The translations under genes were made by a program, and so were the position numbers. A stretch of DNA of 64,000 nucleotides from contig NZ_QNRR01000006.1 of NCBI RefSeq assembly GCF_003315205.1, positions 372,001-436,000 of the forward strand. Reading direction: 5' to 3'. The notes under the pieces are model-generated. The model saw only the letters and a list, made by a program, of their open reading frames with translations, had not been told where the DNA came from and ran no database searches. Of this stretch, positions 4,850 through 12,691 are shown one piece after another. This stretch comes from Roseimicrobium gellanilyticum. GTDB lineage: Bacteria; Verrucomicrobiota; Verrucomicrobiia; Verrucomicrobiales; Verrucomicrobiaceae. Position 1 is the first letter of the stretch; the number at the start of each line of letters is the position of its first letter.

Positions 4850-7800
4850 ATGCCACCTTCATCGTCAGCCGCGCCCGGAATGCGCTTTGGAAACTTCGAG
4901 GTCCTCACCGACTCCAACGGCAAGAATTGCCTGTTGGGCGGAGGGGCTTTTGGCAAGACGTACAAGGCCAGACATATCTTCCTGAAGCGCATCGTGGCGC
5001 TCAAGGTACTGCATGATCGCTACGCCAATGATGCCCGAGCGCGGGAGCGTTTCCTCAGAGAAGCCCAGGCCGCTCATGAGCTGAAGCATCCCCACATCGC
5101 CGAGGTGCTGGACTTCGGCGAAGCGGATGGCTCCCTGTACTACGCGATGGAGTTCTGCTCGGGCGGTGACCTCGAGCACTACACCAAGAACGCCAAGGGC
5201 CCGGTGCCGCCTGCGGTGTGCCTCGGTTTCGCCCGGCAAATCTGCAAGGCGCTTGCCTACGCGCACGAGAGAAACTTCTACCATCGCGATCTGAAGCCGC
5301 CGAACGTGATGCTGGCTTCTTCTGAAGGCGAGCCCGTGTTGAAGCTCATCGACTTCGGCCTCGTGAAGATGGGAGTCGAGGACACGGAAGAGTCCTCGGG
5401 CCTCACCATGGCGGGCGAGGTGCTGGGCACCCCGATGTTCGCCAGCCCCGAGCAGCTTCGTGAAGAGGATCTGGATCAGCGCAGCGATTTGTTCTCGCTG
5501 GGCATGACCCTCTGGTACCTGCTGGAGGGCGCCCCCCCGGTGCCAGGCAGCGCGCTGACCGTGATGGCGGAGCGGCTGAGCCACAAGTCGTATGACAAAC
5601 TTTTCTCCATGCGAGTGCCACGCGCAGTGCGTCCGGTGCTCTCCAAGTTGCTGGAGAAGGATCCTCAGAACCGCTACCAGAACGCCGATGCCCTCCTGGT
5701 GGCGCTGACCGAGGCACTGGCAGAACTGGAAAAAGAAACAGCAGCCGCCAAAGCGCCATCCGGTGCACTCACGCCCACCGCTGCGACGGAATCAGTGATC
5801 GAAGCGGCCGCCTCGCCTGGCTTGGGTGAGGTGATGGCCCACGCCGGCAGCTCCAGCACGACGGTCCCTAAGACGGAAACAAATCTACCCGCGACTACCG
5901 AGAGCGCTTCGACAACACAAGCAGAGCCCGCAGCCAAAGCGCCGCGCCTCCAGTTGCTGAAGAACCTCGGCTACTGCGTCCTGGGTGAGGCCAGGCAGGC
6001 CCAGGATCTCTCCTCAGATGCCGAGGTGGTCGCAGTGCGATTGCAGGATGGGCTCGACAGCACTGCCACGTGGCCAGCACGTCTGGCAGGCGCAGCTCAA
6101 ACGGTCCCGCCGCGTCTCACGGGAGATCTGCCGCTCGTCACCCAAATCCACGAAGACCACCCGTACGCCGTCTGCTCCAGCTCGGGCACGATTCGGCTTG
6201 TGCAGATCCTACAGGCGCGCGGAAATCTTCCCTTCTTGGAGGCGGCGCAGGTGCTGAGTCAGATTGCTCTGGTGCTGGACGAGGCCCGTAACAGCAACCG
6301 GAAGCATGATCTGCAACTCAATCAGATCAATCTGGCACCACTGGTGGCCAATCCTGCCGAATCCGCGCCTGCCTATACCCTCACACCGCTTCAACTGGAT
6401 CAGTGGCCGCCCTTTTTGGTGTGCGTGCCCCTGAGGCAGGGCGCCACCTCCATGCCCGGGCACATGGAGGATGACGATCCCAACGCGACCGGCATGATGA
6501 CCATGCGGAATTCAGCGGCCGATGAATTCCTCGATCCCAACGCTGCCTTCGGCGGACTCATCTACCGGCTCATCACCGGGGGGGAGCCGCGTTCGGCGAT
6601 GTACCGGTCGAAGAACAATTACCGGCCCATCCCCAATCTCTCGCGCGAAGGGAACCATTTGCTGGCCAGCTGCCTGGAGGGCTCGTTCAACGACGACACC
6701 CTCAGCCATCTGCTGGAGAAGATGATGCGGGCAGAGAAGAGCAATCTCGTCCCCCACACCTCCAGCACGCGGAGCAACGCGGGAGTCCTGAGTTCCGCAG
6801 CGGCGATGAAGTCCGGCGCGCACTCGCACGAGCAGCCCGCTACCGCGACCTCGACATCGCCGCTCAAGACATCCAGCCCGAAATCTGCGGAACCGAGCGC
6901 TGGGACGCCTGCGACTCCCGCAGTGCCGACACCGACACCTCAATCCGCCCCACAGACAAAGGTGCCTGAGCCTCCTCCGGCTGTAGTGGCTGCAGTCACT
7001 CCTGCTGCTCCCCCGCAGCCACCTCCCCTTGCCCCTCCGACACCGGTCGCAGCCTCTGTCGCACCCGTGGAGCCCAAACCCCCGGTTCCCTCACCACCAG
7101 TTTCCGTTCCACCCCCAGAGCCCCCAAAAGCTCAGGTCACACCGGTCAAACCTGCATCTCCTTTGCCACCTCCTGCCAAGGAGAAGGCAAAGGACAAGGA
7201 GAAGGAGAAGCAGCAGCCCAAACCTGTAGCGACGCCGAAGAAGCCGGCCTCGACTCCCGTACCTCCCATCGTATGGCTGGCGGCGGGAGCCTCACTGCTG
7301 GTGCTCGGGGCCGTGGTCACAGTGGGAATTTTTGCCTATCAGGGGTGGCACACTTCCAAGCCTGAGCCGGCACCTACTCCTCCGAATACCCTTGTAGACC
7401 TCCCCGCGCCTCCGCAGCCAGAGGTGAAAAAAGAGGAGCCACCCAAACCCGAAACGAAGACGCCACCTCCGACGACACCCCCGGCGGCGGAGAAGAAACC
7501 TGAACCCCCGCCGAAACCCAAGCCACCAAGGGAGCTGGTCTTCACCAAGCGTGTTTTCCCCGCGACCGTCCGGGTGAAAGCCAACGGACGCAGCGTGCAG
7601 CTCACGAAGAACTCGCTCAATCAATTCGTTCTGAACCTCTCCGCCTTCACCGACTACCCGCTCTCCATCCTCATCTCCCCGCCCCTTGGATTTGCGGGAG
7701 AGTCCCACCTCATCACTGACCCGAAGGCCAGCACCTATGAACATGAGGTGGTCTTCAAGCGCGCAAAGTCTCCGATCACCATCCCCGGCAACTCTGACTA

Positions 7801-8437
7801 CGACCAGGCTGAGCTTACCTTTCTGGACTACCACGATGACGAGCGGGCCAGTTTCCAAGGTGATGAGTTTTCCAAGCCAGGCGTTGGAACTGTTTCGTTG
7901 CGGAATGGTTCCGCAACCACCGAGGTGCCAACCGGGCTCTATCAGATTCGCCTCATTTCCAAATACCAGAATGTCGCGTCTGTCACTCTGGCGGCAAAGC
8001 ATCCCGTCCCCAAGAGAGCCGGAACGGGCGAGTTGAGCGCCCCTGCGGAGGGATGGGGAGGCCACACTTTCGAGTGCAACTTCCAGGTGGAAGTCGACAT
8101 CAGCGGCAAGAAGACAAAGCTCTACGCACGCCGCATTCTGACTTTTGACGAGGATCTGTCCAAGGGCGTTCTCCAGGACAATTGGGCGACCGAGGGGCGA
8201 TTACCGGAACGTCAGCAGAGCACGATTCGCGACATCAAGGTGGATGCGTCTGGCAACCTGACCGCGCTGCTTCCTCTGGAAGATCCCCAGCACAAGGACA
8301 CCACTTTCGACGAGATTGTCGAGCTCAAGCGCAATGCCCAGGGTGGGGTCACCTTCCAATGTTATCCTGCGGCGAATTCCGCGAACAAGACGCGGGACGA
8401 CTACGACGTGAACGGGATAGCCAAAAAGGTCCGGTAG
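4850..8437 (+). CDS. Transmembrane Ser/Thr protein kinase with apparent tandem pseudokinase domain
   Basis: 1195 residues. An active Hanks-type kinase domain occupies about 13-290: glycine loop GGGAFGKTYKA (30-40), VALKV Lys52, HRDLKPPN (145-152), DFG (168-170) and SPEQL in place of APE. A second region (about 366-645) looks like a degenerate kinase: VAVRL near 393-397 where VAxK is expected, KHDLQLNQI (485-493) in register with HRDLKPxNI but lacking the catalytic Lys and Asn, no DFG, and a C-lobe-like FGGLIYRLITGG (567-578). Then come a Pro-rich linker (about 650-800), one membrane segment (about 806-828), another Pro-rich linker and a C-terminal domain outside the cytoplasm (about 885-1195) of unknown fold. 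MRFGNFEVL at 4880 is an alternative start. Transcribed alone, upstream of a beta-barrel gene. Confidence 0.93.
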   Translation: MPPSSSAAPGMRFGNFEVLTDSNGKNCLLGGGAFGKTYKARHIFLKRIVALKVLHDRYANDARARERFLREAQAAHELKHPHIAEVLDFGEADGSLYYAMEFCSGGDLEHYTKNAKGPVPPAVCLGFARQICKALAYAHERNFYHRDLKPPNVMLASSEGEPVLKLIDFGLVKMGVEDTEESSGLTMAGEVLGTPMFASPEQLREEDLDQRSDLFSLGMTLWYLLEGAPPVPGSALTVMAERLSHKSYDKLFSMRVPRAVRPVLSKLLEKDPQNRYQNADALLVALTEALAELEKETAAAKAPSGALTPTAATESVIEAAASPGLGEVMAHAGSSSTTVPKTETNLPATTESASTTQAEPAAKAPRLQLLKNLGYCVLGEARQAQDLSSDAEVVAVRLQDGLDSTATWPARLAGAAQTVPPRLTGDLPLVTQIHEDHPYAVCSSSGTIRLVQILQARGNLPFLEAAQVLSQIALVLDEARNSNRKHDLQLNQINLAPLVANPAESAPAYTLTPLQLDQWPPFLVCVPLRQGATSMPGHMEDDDPNATGMMTMRNSAADEFLDPNAAFGGLIYRLITGGEPRSAMYRSKNNYRPIPNLSREGNHLLASCLEGSFNDDTLSHLLEKMMRAEKSNLVPHTSSTRSNAGVLSSAAAMKSGAHSHEQPATATSTSPLKTSSPKSAEPSAGTPATPAVPTPTPQSAPQTKVPEPPPAVVAAVTPAAPPQPPPLAPPTPVAASVAPVEPKPPVPSPPVSVPPPEPPKAQVTPVKPASPLPPPAKEKAKDKEKEKQQPKPVATPKKPASTPVPPIVWLAAGASLLVLGAVVTVGIFAYQGWHTSKPEPAPTPPNTLVDLPAPPQPEVKKEEPPKPETKTPPPTTPPAAEKKPEPPPKPKPPRELVFTKRVFPATVRVKANGRSVQLTKNSLNQFVLNLSAFTDYPLSILISPPLGFAGESHLITDPKASTYEHEVVFKRAKSPITIPGNSDYDQAELTFLDYHDDERASFQGDEFSKPGVGTVSLRNGSATTEVPTGLYQIRLISKYQNVASVTLAAKHPVPKRAGTGELSAPAEGWGGHTFECNFQVEVDISGKKTKLYARRILTFDEDLSKGVLQDNWATEGRLPERQQSTIRDIKVDASGNLTALLPLEDPQHKDTTFDEIVELKRNAQGGVTFQCYPAANSANKTRDDYDVNGIAKKVR

Positions 8438-9995: not shown

Positions 9996-10105
9996 GAGCA
10001 GCCAAATTACAATTGCGGCATGGGGCAGCGCCTCATGCCGCATTTTTTTCTTCCCGCGCGGCGAGTTTGGAGCACATTGCACCGGCTACGGCCCAGACTC
10101 CCTCC

Positions 10106-12691
10106 ATGCCCGATCCCAAGAAACCCCTCAATCTGGACGACATTGACTTTGGCGCGACCCTGCGTGGCCATCAAAAGGGCGATCGGGTGTTCGACCGCTT
10201 CCTGTTGGAGAAGCTGCTGGGGCGCGGAGGCATGGGCGTGGTGTGGCTGGGAACGGATGAACGTCTGGGCCGTGAGGTGGCGCTGAAGTTCGCTCCTGAG
10301 GCAGTCCGCTACGATGATGTTGCCGTAGACGAGCTGAAGGAAGAAACAAAAAAGGGGCTCAACCTGGCGCACCCGAACATCGTCAAGATCTACGACTTCC
10401 TCGTGGATGAAACCCATGCCGCCATCAGCATGGAATTCATCGACGGTGAGAACCTTGGAGCGCTACGCACGCGTCAGCCGAACAAGGTGTTCGAGACCCG
10501 CCAGATTGCCCTGTGGGTGGGCCAGTTCCTGGACGCGCTCGACTATGCGCACCGCATCGCCAAGGTCATCCACCGCGACCTGAAGCCTGCGAACCTGATG
10601 ATCGACCGCGAGGGCAACCTGCGCGTGACGGACTTTGGCATTGCCCGAAGCATCTCGGACGCGATGAATCGCGCCACGTTGGGTATTGGGAACTCCACTG
10701 GCACGCTTGCCTACATGTCTCCCCAGCAGGCAGACGGCAAGAAGCCCCACATCACAGATGACCTGTATGCCTTCGGCAGCACCCTATATGAGCTGCTGAC
10801 CGGCAAGCCGCCTTTCTTCTCAGGCAACATCATTTCCCAGCTCCAGCATGATCCGGTTACCAGCCTCACGGAACGCCGTGAGGAATTCGGCATCACCGCG
10901 GGTGAACCGATCCCCATCGAGTGGGAGCAGACGATTCTCGCATGCCTGGAGAAGTCTCCGGAAAATCGTCCTGCCAGTGCTCTGGCAGTCCGTCAGCGGC
11001 TGGGCCTCGCCCCTGCCTGCCAGCCAGAGGTGCCACCGCTTCCCGCGGTGCCCGGTGGATCCGGAGCCGTCGGCGGAGCACCTACGAACTTCAGCCACTC
11101 AGCCGCGCATCTTCCAACGGCGCATGGACCGACGCAAACTTATGTGCGTCCCGGAGCCGGCCTCACGGAGATGAGCCTGCCGAACCGGCCCATCGGTTCC
11201 GGTGCCATCAAAGTAGGCCCCGGCGTCACGCCGGTGCAGCCGCCCACCACGCATGATACCCAGCAACCTGCGACCAAGAAGGGCAGCGGCGGAGTGTTGC
11301 TGGTCGTTGGCTTGCTCGCGGTGTTCTTCATCCTGGCCGTCGTGGGAGGAGGTGGGTGGTGGGCTTGGAATAACACGCCCTACCTCAAGAAGCTCCTCGG
11401 TAAGGAAGTCGCCGTGAATCCCGGCAATCAGGATCCGACGCCAACACCAACTCCCGAACCGCCCCCGACACCACCAGGCCCTGGCCCCGGACCAACGCCT
11501 ACCCCCACACCTCCCGGACCCGGTCCTGCCCCCACGCCGACGCCGCCTGGCCCCGGCCCGACCCCAACACCCACGCCTACTCCGCCTACGAATCAGAAGA
11601 TCCAAGCTCTGATCGACAAGGCAAAAGCTGGCGACACCGTGACGATCCCGGAGGGAATTTACGAGGAGCAGATCAAGTTCAAATCCAGCATCACGCTGAA
11701 GGCCGCTGTGCCGGGCAAGGTGATCATTCAGACAGATGGCCGCTCTGGATCGGTCTTCGCAGCGGAGAATTGCGAGGGAGGAACTGTCAGCGGCTTCGTG
11801 TTCCAACATACCGGTACGGAAGTGACTGAGAAGGTAAACTGGCCCGTGGTCCTGGTGAAAGTCAGCAGCATCGTGATGGATGGCTGTACCATTCAAGCAG
11901 GCCTCGGGAATGGCCTTGAGGTCACCGGCGCGTGCAAGCCGCAGTTCATCAAGTGCATCATCCGGAACAACACCGTCAATGGGGTTGTCTTCGAGAGCGG
12001 TGCATCCGGTGCCCTGACGGAGGCGGATGTGCGCAAGAATGGTGAGAACGGTGCAGACATCCGTTTCACCGGTACCCATCCCACCTTTTCCAAGTGCACC
12101 TTCGCTGAGAATGGCTTCGCGGGAATCGTGGCCAAAGACGGAGGCAGTGTGAGCGTCCTTGATCAGTCCAGATGCCTGAACAACAACGACGCAGGCATTG
12201 CCGTGTCAGGGAAGGACTCGTTCATCAATGTCGTGGGCGCGGAACTGCAGGGCAATGTCATAGGCATTGCCGTCATGGATGGGGGGGCGAAAGCCAAGGT
12301 GCAGGAGTGCATCATCACGGAGAGCCAGCAGGCTGGCATTCAGGTTCAGGCTCCAGGCGCGGGCACCGAACTTCTTAACAATACTGTGCAGGGATCCAAG
12401 ATGGACGGCATTTTGGCCTCAGGCGCTTCCGGCGAGGCCATCACCATTATCGGCAACAAGGTCAAAGGGAACGGAGGAAACGGCATTCTGATCTTCGGCT
12501 CGGGCTTCAAACCCAAGGTCGAGCAGAATGAAGTCAGCACCAATGGCCAGACTGGCATCTACGCCGGGGAGGGCGTTTCCGGCACCGTGAAAGACAACAC
12601 CGTTCGCGGAAATCATCTGGGCAGCATCAAGAATGAGGGTGCCGCCGCAGATATCGTCATCCAGGGGAATCTGGCGGACGAATCCCAGTAA
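10106..12691 (+). CDS. Transmembrane Ser/Thr protein kinase with right-handed beta-helix ectodomain
   Basis: 861 residues from ATG 10106 (MPDPKKPLNLDDIDFG); an in-frame extension to 10013 is possible but not supported. Kinase domain about 30-300: LGRGGMGVVWLG glycine loop, VALKF Lys61, HRDLKPAN (156-163), DFG (176-178). Residues 300-390 form a linker, then one membrane segment (about 396-420) with GGGGWWAW. A Pro/Thr/Gly linker (about 435-495) follows. The extracellular or periplasmic part (about 497-861) has short repeats such as NNTVNGVVFESGAS, ENGFAGIVAKDGGSV and GNGGNGILIFGSG, typical of the NosD/pectate-lyase-like parallel beta-helix. The architecture suggests the helix senses a glycan or wall polymer and passes a signal to the kinase, which is inference. 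Confidence 0.93.
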   Translation: MPDPKKPLNLDDIDFGATLRGHQKGDRVFDRFLLEKLLGRGGMGVVWLGTDERLGREVALKFAPEAVRYDDVAVDELKEETKKGLNLAHPNIVKIYDFLVDETHAAISMEFIDGENLGALRTRQPNKVFETRQIALWVGQFLDALDYAHRIAKVIHRDLKPANLMIDREGNLRVTDFGIARSISDAMNRATLGIGNSTGTLAYMSPQQADGKKPHITDDLYAFGSTLYELLTGKPPFFSGNIISQLQHDPVTSLTERREEFGITAGEPIPIEWEQTILACLEKSPENRPASALAVRQRLGLAPACQPEVPPLPAVPGGSGAVGGAPTNFSHSAAHLPTAHGPTQTYVRPGAGLTEMSLPNRPIGSGAIKVGPGVTPVQPPTTHDTQQPATKKGSGGVLLVVGLLAVFFILAVVGGGGWWAWNNTPYLKKLLGKEVAVNPGNQDPTPTPTPEPPPTPPGPGPGPTPTPTPPGPGPAPTPTPPGPGPTPTPTPTPPTNQKIQALIDKAKAGDTVTIPEGIYEEQIKFKSSITLKAAVPGKVIIQTDGRSGSVFAAENCEGGTVSGFVFQHTGTEVTEKVNWPVVLVKVSSIVMDGCTIQAGLGNGLEVTGACKPQFIKCIIRNNTVNGVVFESGASGALTEADVRKNGENGADIRFTGTHPTFSKCTFAENGFAGIVAKDGGSVSVLDQSRCLNNNDAGIAVSGKDSFINVVGAELQGNVIGIAVMDGGAKAKVQECIITESQQAGIQVQAPGAGTELLNNTVQGSKMDGILASGASGEAITIIGNKVKGNGGNGILIFGSGFKPKVEQNEVSTNGQTGIYAGEGVSGTVKDNTVRGNHLGSIKNEGAAADIVIQGNLADESQ

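Follow-up and report, generated by a model that had tools for sequence, protein, structure and literature searches.

The question raised by a gene at positions 4850–8437 (forward strand) of a 64,000-nucleotide stretch of the Roseimicrobium gellanilyticum genome (contig NZ_QNRR01000006.1, positions 372,001–436,000; hereafter the window) is what a receptor-type Ser/Thr kinase might do with a second domain that keeps the order of the kinase motifs and has lost key residues. An earlier note, made from the sequence alone, had described an active kinase followed, between kinase and membrane helix, by a cis-acting regulatory pseudokinase that would be unusual in bacteria. The open reading frame (ORF), its coordinates and its motifs were as that note described them, and the kinase-pseudokinase tandem ahead of the membrane helix is strongly supported by profile-profile comparison (hhalign), by the family alignment, by a leave-out hidden Markov model (HMM) and by the position of the transmembrane (TM) helix after the second domain. 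On balance, the second domain (D2) is probably a non-catalytic, cis-regulatory module in a single-pass membrane receptor kinase. The features referred to throughout are listed with their amino acid (aa) positions; dN/dS is the ratio of nonsynonymous to synonymous substitution rates.

4850..8437, + strand: whole gene, an ORF for a 1195-aa receptor-type Ser/Thr kinase with a kinase-pseudokinase tandem
4880..5731, + strand: D1, kinase domain, aa 11-294 (Pfam Pkinase E-value 3.2e-47; Lys52, HRD Asp147, DFG Asp168)
5732..5938, + strand: D1-D2 linker, aa 295-363, fast evolving (dN/dS 0.39)
5939..6748, + strand: D2, degenerate kinase domain (predicted pseudokinase), aa 364-633, from family profile, hhalign, leave-out HMM and fold match (dN/dS 0.087)
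6302..6325, + strand: KHDLQLNQ, aa 485-492, in the register of HRDLKPxN, with Asp kept and Lys and Asn each replaced by Gln
6425..6433, + strand: VPL, aa 526-528, occupying the DFG place (family motif xPL)
6542..6583, + strand: AAFGGLIYRLITGG, aa 565-578, alpha-F region, a D2 motif with strong conservation
6767..7264, + strand: linker rich in Pro and Ala, aa 640-805 (166 residues, 47 of them Pro)
7268..7324, + strand: single TM helix, aa 807-825, predicted from hydropathy only
7520..8434, + strand: C-terminal beta-rich region, aa 891-1195, presumed extracytoplasmic, with no Pfam family

The first domain, placed by the earlier note at aa 30–290 and called active, was matched by Pfam Pkinase at aa 28–280 (E 3.2e-47) and is the sole kinase domain that Pfam finds in the protein. 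The beta3 Lys, HRD Asp, catalytic-loop Lys and Asn, DFG Asp and APE Glu are all present in the window D1 and nearly so across 40 aligned rows of the family (lettered rows: beta3 Lys, 37/38; HRD Asp, 39/39; DFG Asp, 38/39). With all catalytic residues in place, D1 can be classed by its residues as an active-type Hanks-type Ser/Thr kinase. Its best PDB matches include PknE, PknB and StkP, and the best NCBIfam model was PknB_PASTA_kin (224 bits, compared to a PknB_PASTA cut-off of 450). The main exception in the family is L113:5078-7243 (genome G054), where D1 is degenerate too (VSLEI at beta3, HGD, and GGF at the DFG place) and both kinase domains may be dead.

Whether D2 is a kinase domain at all can barely be read from the window. 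Neither Pfam nor NCBIfam matched any kinase or other known domain in aa 360–650, and hhalign returned 27.5% for the window D2 alone and 47.3% for the window D2 with that of its sister species; the single sequence was dropped as evidence, and the claim of kinase ancestry rests on the D2 family because the window D2 is barely detectable by itself. The family alignment has 42 rows, of which 38 were used as a profile after four incomplete rows were dropped, and it was compared with a set of 34 kinases from outside the family. This comparison gave an hhalign probability of 99.3% (E 6.1e-21, 194 columns), against ≤3.4% in 30 column shuffles and 0.1% for the reversed profile. The match spans positions 2–202 of the 263 in the template, from beta1 to just past alpha-F, with the last ~60 positions (alpha-G to alpha-I) outside it. 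An alignment of six second domains (A1) alone gave 97.2% over 131 columns (30 shuffles, ≤3.0%).

An HMM built without the window and the sister species matched window aa 347–633 at 121 bits, and the same HMM also matched the N-lobe of D1 (50 bits). A kinase profile (A2) matched D2 itself in several relatives (L128, E 1.3e-12; L099, 5.7e-12; L118, 1.9e-8; L125, 4.9e-8) and gave no D2 match in others, including the closest relative, L111. Pfam Pkinase listed two stretches each in L117, L118 and L128, with no position given for the second. The structure prediction that the earlier note had proposed as a check was an AlphaFold2 model of D2 from three sequences, and it is weak (predicted local distance difference test [pLDDT] 51.2; predicted template modelling score [pTM] 0.43; pLDDT <50 at model residues 127–205), with secondary-structure elements in the order expected for a kinase N-lobe plus alpha-D and alpha-E. 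The best 50 matches to this model were all protein kinases in Foldseek (top, PknB, E 3.2e-5) and all kinases in VIA-align (top, PknB, Z 9.6, root-mean-square deviation 5.4, 205 aligned), which is supportive of, rather than decisive for, a kinase fold. Neither of the two outcomes that the earlier note had named as refuting its reading, a predicted structure unlike a kinase or another known domain in this region, was thus observed. That aa 360–650 are not kinase-like and that the motif order is coincidental, as the low score of the window alone, the lack of a Pfam or NCBIfam match and the weak model could suggest, is very improbable given the family-level hhalign and HMM evidence with its controls and the kinase-only fold matches among the best 50. 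The profile comparisons thus confirm that D2 descends from a protein kinase domain, with homology over both lobes.

The residues that D2 has lost were assigned from the profile-profile alignment, which placed Asp487 in the HRD Asp column, Gln489 at the catalytic-loop Lys and Gln492 at the Asn, in agreement with the earlier alignment of KHDLQLNQI with HRDLKPxNI. The window D2 has no beta3 Lys, catalytic-loop Lys, catalytic-loop Asn or DFG, and has an Asp (Asp487) at the HRD position. Across the family, none of 40 lettered rows has the catalytic-loop Lys and none of 40 has the Asn, whereas at the HRD position 7 of 42 rows show Asp and 13 show Glu (5 gaps). The DFG place, VPL in the window, reads mostly xPL (Pro, 32/42), with DFG in no row of the aligned stretch. 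Judged by eye, beta3 retains its Lys in 7 of the 39 rows lettered at that column. The reading of VAVRL as a degenerate VAxK stands in so far as the Lys is lost either way, but its register is uncertain: in the family alignment it is Val396 that occupies the beta3-Lys column, one residue before Arg397, and conservation of the Arg is contradicted by the same-genus orthologue, which reads VVVQL. The C-lobe-like FGGLIYRLITGG lies in the alpha-F region of D2 (Tyr, 37/42 second-domain rows; Gly, 41/42), and a C-lobe pattern, F-x-x-L-I-Y...G...LSExGN...E, is specific to the family; some N-lobe and alpha-E positions are invariant in the six-row alignment as well. With the VAIK Lys and DFG gone, and with them most of the residues on which catalysis and Mg-ATP binding depend, D2 qualifies by sequence as a pseudokinase, in which phosphotransfer is predicted to be absent and which is probably unable to bind ATP.

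These columns also bear on whether D2 might have gained another enzyme activity, such as the AMPylation or glutamylation for which the pseudokinases SelO and SidJ set a precedent (PMC12599244). Such an activity could draw on the beta3 Lys that some D2s keep (7/39) or on the acidic residue that some have at the HRD position (Asp in 7, Glu in 13 of 42 rows); it is improbable, with no candidate catalytic residue conserved family-wide, a window D2 that lacks the beta3 Lys, no catalytic-loop Lys or Asn in the 40 lettered rows, and no DFG.

Selection on the domains was estimated with the Nei-Gojobori method from one pair, the window gene and its same-genus orthologue. With synonymous distances near 1 or above, the dN/dS ratios are approximate. 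They were lowest in the two kinase-type domains (D1, 0.056; D2, 0.087), followed by the C-terminus (0.134), and were higher in the Pro-rich linker (0.21) and in the one between D1 and D2 (0.39). D2 is under purifying selection and is clearly constrained. A decaying, functionless duplicate might be suspected from the missing catalytic residues and from the high divergence of D2 (mean p-distance over 33 proteins, 0.79 vs 0.61 for D1); this is hardly credible for a domain whose dN/dS is far under that of the linkers, which has strongly conserved motifs and which accompanies 22 of 24 strong D1 matches (below). The purifying selection seen in this species pair led to the rejection of D2 as a relic.

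The family was assembled in several searches. The window D2 region had matches in 4 of 57 genomes, its own included, and a whole-protein scan among 37 loci added two more tandem proteins, L005 and L006. The six-row alignment A1, used as the query against 386 order genomes and 387 phylum genomes, returned long ORFs with full-length relatives and, with weaker scores, the N-lobes of ordinary kinases (e.g., G000:C23). The resulting ORF set came from 36 regions plus L005, with L006, the same gene as one of L116, counted once. D2 was detected at ≥39 bits in 40 ORFs (window's own excluded), and 38 of these have a kinase-profile match before D2, so that the tandem recurs in related genomes, where the earlier note had suggested looking for it. 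A hydropathy TM helix was predicted in 34 of the 40 proteins with D2, always after D2. Where D2 was matched from its start (26 proteins), the D1-D2 linker has a median length of 24.5 aa (7 to 147), compared to 69 aa in the window protein.

The two ORFs lacking a kinase match, L108 and L126 (both from genome G157), have D2 and a TM helix, and the stretches examined around them hold no ORF of ≥250 aa that matches a kinase. L107:1944-6878, a 1645-aa ORF, has two D2-profile matches (aa 419-657 and 879-979) and may thus contain the pseudokinase twice. A second tandem gene, encoding 1464 aa with a more diverged D2, occurs in the window's own genome (L180:1924-6315).

A D2-specific C-lobe profile (A4, 37 rows) was used to explore how widely D2 is distributed. 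Matches came from 30 of the 386 order genomes (17/50 genera) and from 7 of 288 genomes sampled in the phylum, of which six belong to the order and the seventh to another part of the class. Among 10 genomes behind other loci there was a single positive, the Chthoniobacterales metagenome-assembled genome (MAG) of L005. In a Planctomycetota-centred sample it matched 0 of 179 genomes, a search without a positive control, for which the same query matching 30/386 in the order is the comparison. These counts are of profile matches, with the tandem confirmed in part (both matches in G157 are D2 without a kinase), and they are lower bounds because scoring was confined to the best candidates of each genome, A4 was drawn mostly from these genomes, and L180 was missed.

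Joint inheritance of D1 and D2 was examined with quick trees, all with Shimodaira-Hasegawa-like approximate likelihood ratio test (SH-aLRT) support and no bootstrap. The first covered 93 kinase domains and put 37 of the 38 rows from tandem proteins in one group (SH-aLRT 99), with the 55 other kinases (21 from the window's own genome, 34 from other sources) outside it. The sole exception is the extra N-terminal kinase of L114:317-3409, an apparent kinase-kinase-pseudokinase, which groups with ordinary kinases.

As the tandem rows of that tree had been picked by D2, a D1-based search was run in 141 genomes of the order. It gave 24 matches at ≥205 bits, of which 22 have D2; the two without it are L183 (G003) and L184 (G013). 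Below this score there were five more (191 to 201 bits); all but the one in G050 were examined, and these four lack D2 and lie outside the clade. D2 was called in L180, L181, L182, L185 and L186 from a second D2-profile match (61 to 106 bits) that follows a complete kinase domain; its place behind D1 and the missing HRD and DFG (by eye) weigh equally with the score, because the D2 profile gives 79 bits on an ordinary kinase, L188.

The second tree (89 rows) left out fragments <200 aa, L107, two long branches (T_L113 and own_L138), T_L105, T_L125, 11 near-identical kinases of other sources and the window's second kinase. It recovered a clade of 39 tandem rows plus L183 and L184 (SH-aLRT 99). 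A further 45 rows, among them 18 kinases of the window's own genome and the additional kinase of L114, made up a separate group (support 93), and three branched beside the tandem clade. As L183 and L184 form one nested pair, their state is most simply explained by one loss of D2. The partnered kinases thus apparently form one clade, in which D2 has been held next to D1 since one old event. A D2 tree (18 rows selected of 38) joined all D2s on one long branch, and because of this position, with its warning of long-branch attraction, it does not reveal which kinase gave rise to D2. The D1 and D2 distances over 33 proteins are correlated (Mantel r = 0.79, a value reached in none of 2000 permutations; r = 0.62 once the 5 closest of 528 pairs were removed).

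How D2 might act was weighed with these results. In the proposed mechanism, D1 would lie in the cytoplasm at the N-terminus, with D2 and a long flexible linker leading from it to the membrane helix and the sensor lying outside the cytoplasm. D2 would pack against D1, either in its own chain or in a dimer partner, and would make kinase activity depend on the membrane sensor's state, after the manner of JH2 in JAKs. A relay from sensor to kinase suits D2 because it sits between the kinase and the membrane. The close rival is a docking or scaffold module that recruits substrates or partners, or dimerises receptors, leaving the intrinsic activity of D1 unchanged. MviN, which recruits FhaA, and EssB/YukC, which scaffolds secretion, work in this way and are two of the best-described bacterial pseudokinases (PMC12599244); L108 and L126 are D2 proteins with a TM helix and without a kinase, and the C-lobe pattern (F, LIY, G, LSExGN) is conserved while the nucleotide-binding residues are not. 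Against this, a kinase precedes D2 in 38 of 40 D2 ORFs and those in the trees belong to one kinase clade, for which reason an intramolecular role fits better than a general adaptor. Docking is a real, if less likely, possibility and fits nearly as well as regulation in cis, the likeliest role; of the earlier proposal, the pseudokinase and its position stand, with its cis action no firmer than plausible.

Several points weigh against a cis-regulatory D2. Co-inheritance and the Mantel correlation would be expected of any two domains of one polypeptide and are no proof of contact. The trees were quick ones, and D2 was the criterion by which most of their tandem rows had been picked. L108 and L126 on the one side and the clade kinases L183 and L184 on the other show that each domain can stand alone. 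Tight packing of D1 and D2 is not implied, as the window linker is poorly conserved and longer than the family median, and the window D2 retains the Asp at the HRD position. The D2 model, too, is weak.

The domains that follow D2 differ between members, with Sel1 repeats in L120 4446-7538, L101 and L117, a TPR in L118 and a beta-helix in L105; the other 9 of 14 tandem proteins scanned by Pfam had no recognised C-terminal domain among the matches listed. Because of this variation, the kinase-pseudokinase pair may be regarded as the constant core and the sensor as the variable part. It is tentatively suggested, as an idea that may or may not hold, that these proteins represent an old, Verrucomicrobiota-centred and JAK-like class of receptors evolved in bacteria, in which a pseudokinase of single origin was joined to varied sensors (Sel1, TPR, beta-helix and unknown beta domains), with D1 switched in cis and free D2-only receptors acting in trans.

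The C-terminal region of the window protein is homologous to the C-terminus of the L006 protein, and its model (aa 891-1195) is mostly beta (pLDDT 63). No Pfam match was listed for it at E 10, no Foldseek match reached E 0.001 (best, FimD, 8.1e-3), and the best E-value in a PDB sequence search was only 0.19. The weak model has a local match, in Foldseek row 12, to the 77-residue chain D of 9k1u, an RtkS-PpkA complex (E 0.16, probability 1.00, TM-score by target 0.71 over 79 columns), where chain D may be either of the two partners; this is a hint only at a PpkA-like ectodomain piece or a kinase ectodomain fold in common.

The window holds a second Ser/Thr kinase (10013-12691, + strand) ~1.6 kb downstream, with a C-terminal right-handed beta-helix (Pfam), and in a same-genus genome a kinase ORF likewise follows the tandem gene (L111:10739-13360). 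The window's own genome (7.93 Mb) has 39 Pkinase matches. A defence-system reading was rejected: P0001 matches many PADLOC kinase models, but the window's other kinase matches largely the same models, so these matches reflect the kinase domain. The NCBIfam model of the antiphage MAD6 kinase (NF047741) aligns across the D1 C-lobe into the D2 N-lobe in L118:4377-8504 and L128:3276-9062, and MAD6 may have a comparable second kinase-like part.

Among known systems, the bacterial pseudokinase families ActPs1–3, GLW, CP1, DYD and DLHK are degenerate Ser/Thr kinase folds, and several of them carry a TM region at the C-terminus; the fusion partners and motifs described for them differ from those of D2 (PMC12599244). 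D2 lacks the mark of the GLW pseudokinases, a GLW motif whose Trp takes the place of HRD (PMC12599244): no Trp occurs at the HRD-Asp column (37 lettered of 42 rows). ActPs2, defined by a beta3 Arg, an HRD Asp-to-Asn change and a long activation-loop insertion (PMC12599244), was set aside on the two residue features compared: Asp487 is kept and the sister species lacks the Arg. CP1, all of which are COG3899 fusions with no TM, and DLHK, which has no TM and keeps the catalytic-loop Asn (PMC12599244), disagree with the TM helix in 34/40 proteins and, for DLHK, with Asn in 0/40 lettered rows; no COG3899-type domain was among the Pfam matches listed for the 14 tandem proteins. ActPs1 is often fused to a PQQ domain and has no G-helix, and DYD carries a DYD motif (PMC12599244); compared by description only, D2 shows no PQQ domain among the Pfam matches listed and no DYD at the DFG place, and it may yet belong to one of them. 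ActPs3 (MviN-type; family constraints plus an activation-loop deletion), likewise compared by description only and likewise a family in which D2 may fall, agrees in the TM helix after D2. Its Mycobacterium member, MviN, resembles the window protein as a membrane protein with a degenerate kinase domain, which is phosphorylated by a separate kinase, PknB, and recruits FhaA; unlike D2, the pseudokinase part of MviN is described without a fused active kinase (PMC12599244).

A word search of the main text of a 2025 review of the bacterial pseudokinases, which treats the seven families named above (PMC12599244), returned no instance of tandem, cis, Verrucomicrobi, Planctomycet, dual kinase or two kinase domains, and a study of Planctomycetota kinases that includes Verrucomicrobiota outgroups classed domains with catalytic residues as functional (PMC11032199). 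Among the open-access papers listed in the searches, judged by title and abstract opening, there was no account of this family or of a bacterial kinase-pseudokinase tandem. As to the earlier description of the arrangement as unusual in bacteria, it is a family and not a one-off. Bacterial pseudokinases are little studied, and the reviewed examples (MviN, EssB/YukC, SidJ and SelO) act on other proteins (PMC12599244). Here the predicted dead kinase is fused to its presumed client and inherited with it as a unit, which makes the pair testable with a single purified polypeptide and offers a bacterial system for the evolution of kinase-pseudokinase allostery. Natural controls are available in L183 and L184 (no D2), L108 and L126 (no kinase) and L113 (degenerate first domain).

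PknB/StkP-type receptor kinases consist of a cytoplasmic Hanks-type kinase, a juxtamembrane linker, one TM helix and an extracytoplasmic C-terminus, a layout that the window protein would share, except that it has a whole pseudokinase between kinase and membrane. Kinase-pseudokinase pairs within one protein are familiar chiefly from animals and plants. JAKs carry an active JH1 kinase and a JH2 pseudokinase in one polypeptide, are cytosolic and have the pseudokinase first. An Obscuribacterales MAG encodes an 816-aa protein of this pseudokinase-kinase order (L036:4695-7142; a degenerate kinase with HRN for HRD and GFN at the DFG place, then a canonical kinase), which lies outside the window's family. 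The window protein, like JAKs and the plant tandem kinase-pseudokinase Yr15/WTK1, joins an active and a predicted dead kinase domain in one polypeptide; it differs from JAKs, with which it is compared by architecture alone, in its order of kinase, pseudokinase and TM helix and in being built on a bacterial Hanks kinase.

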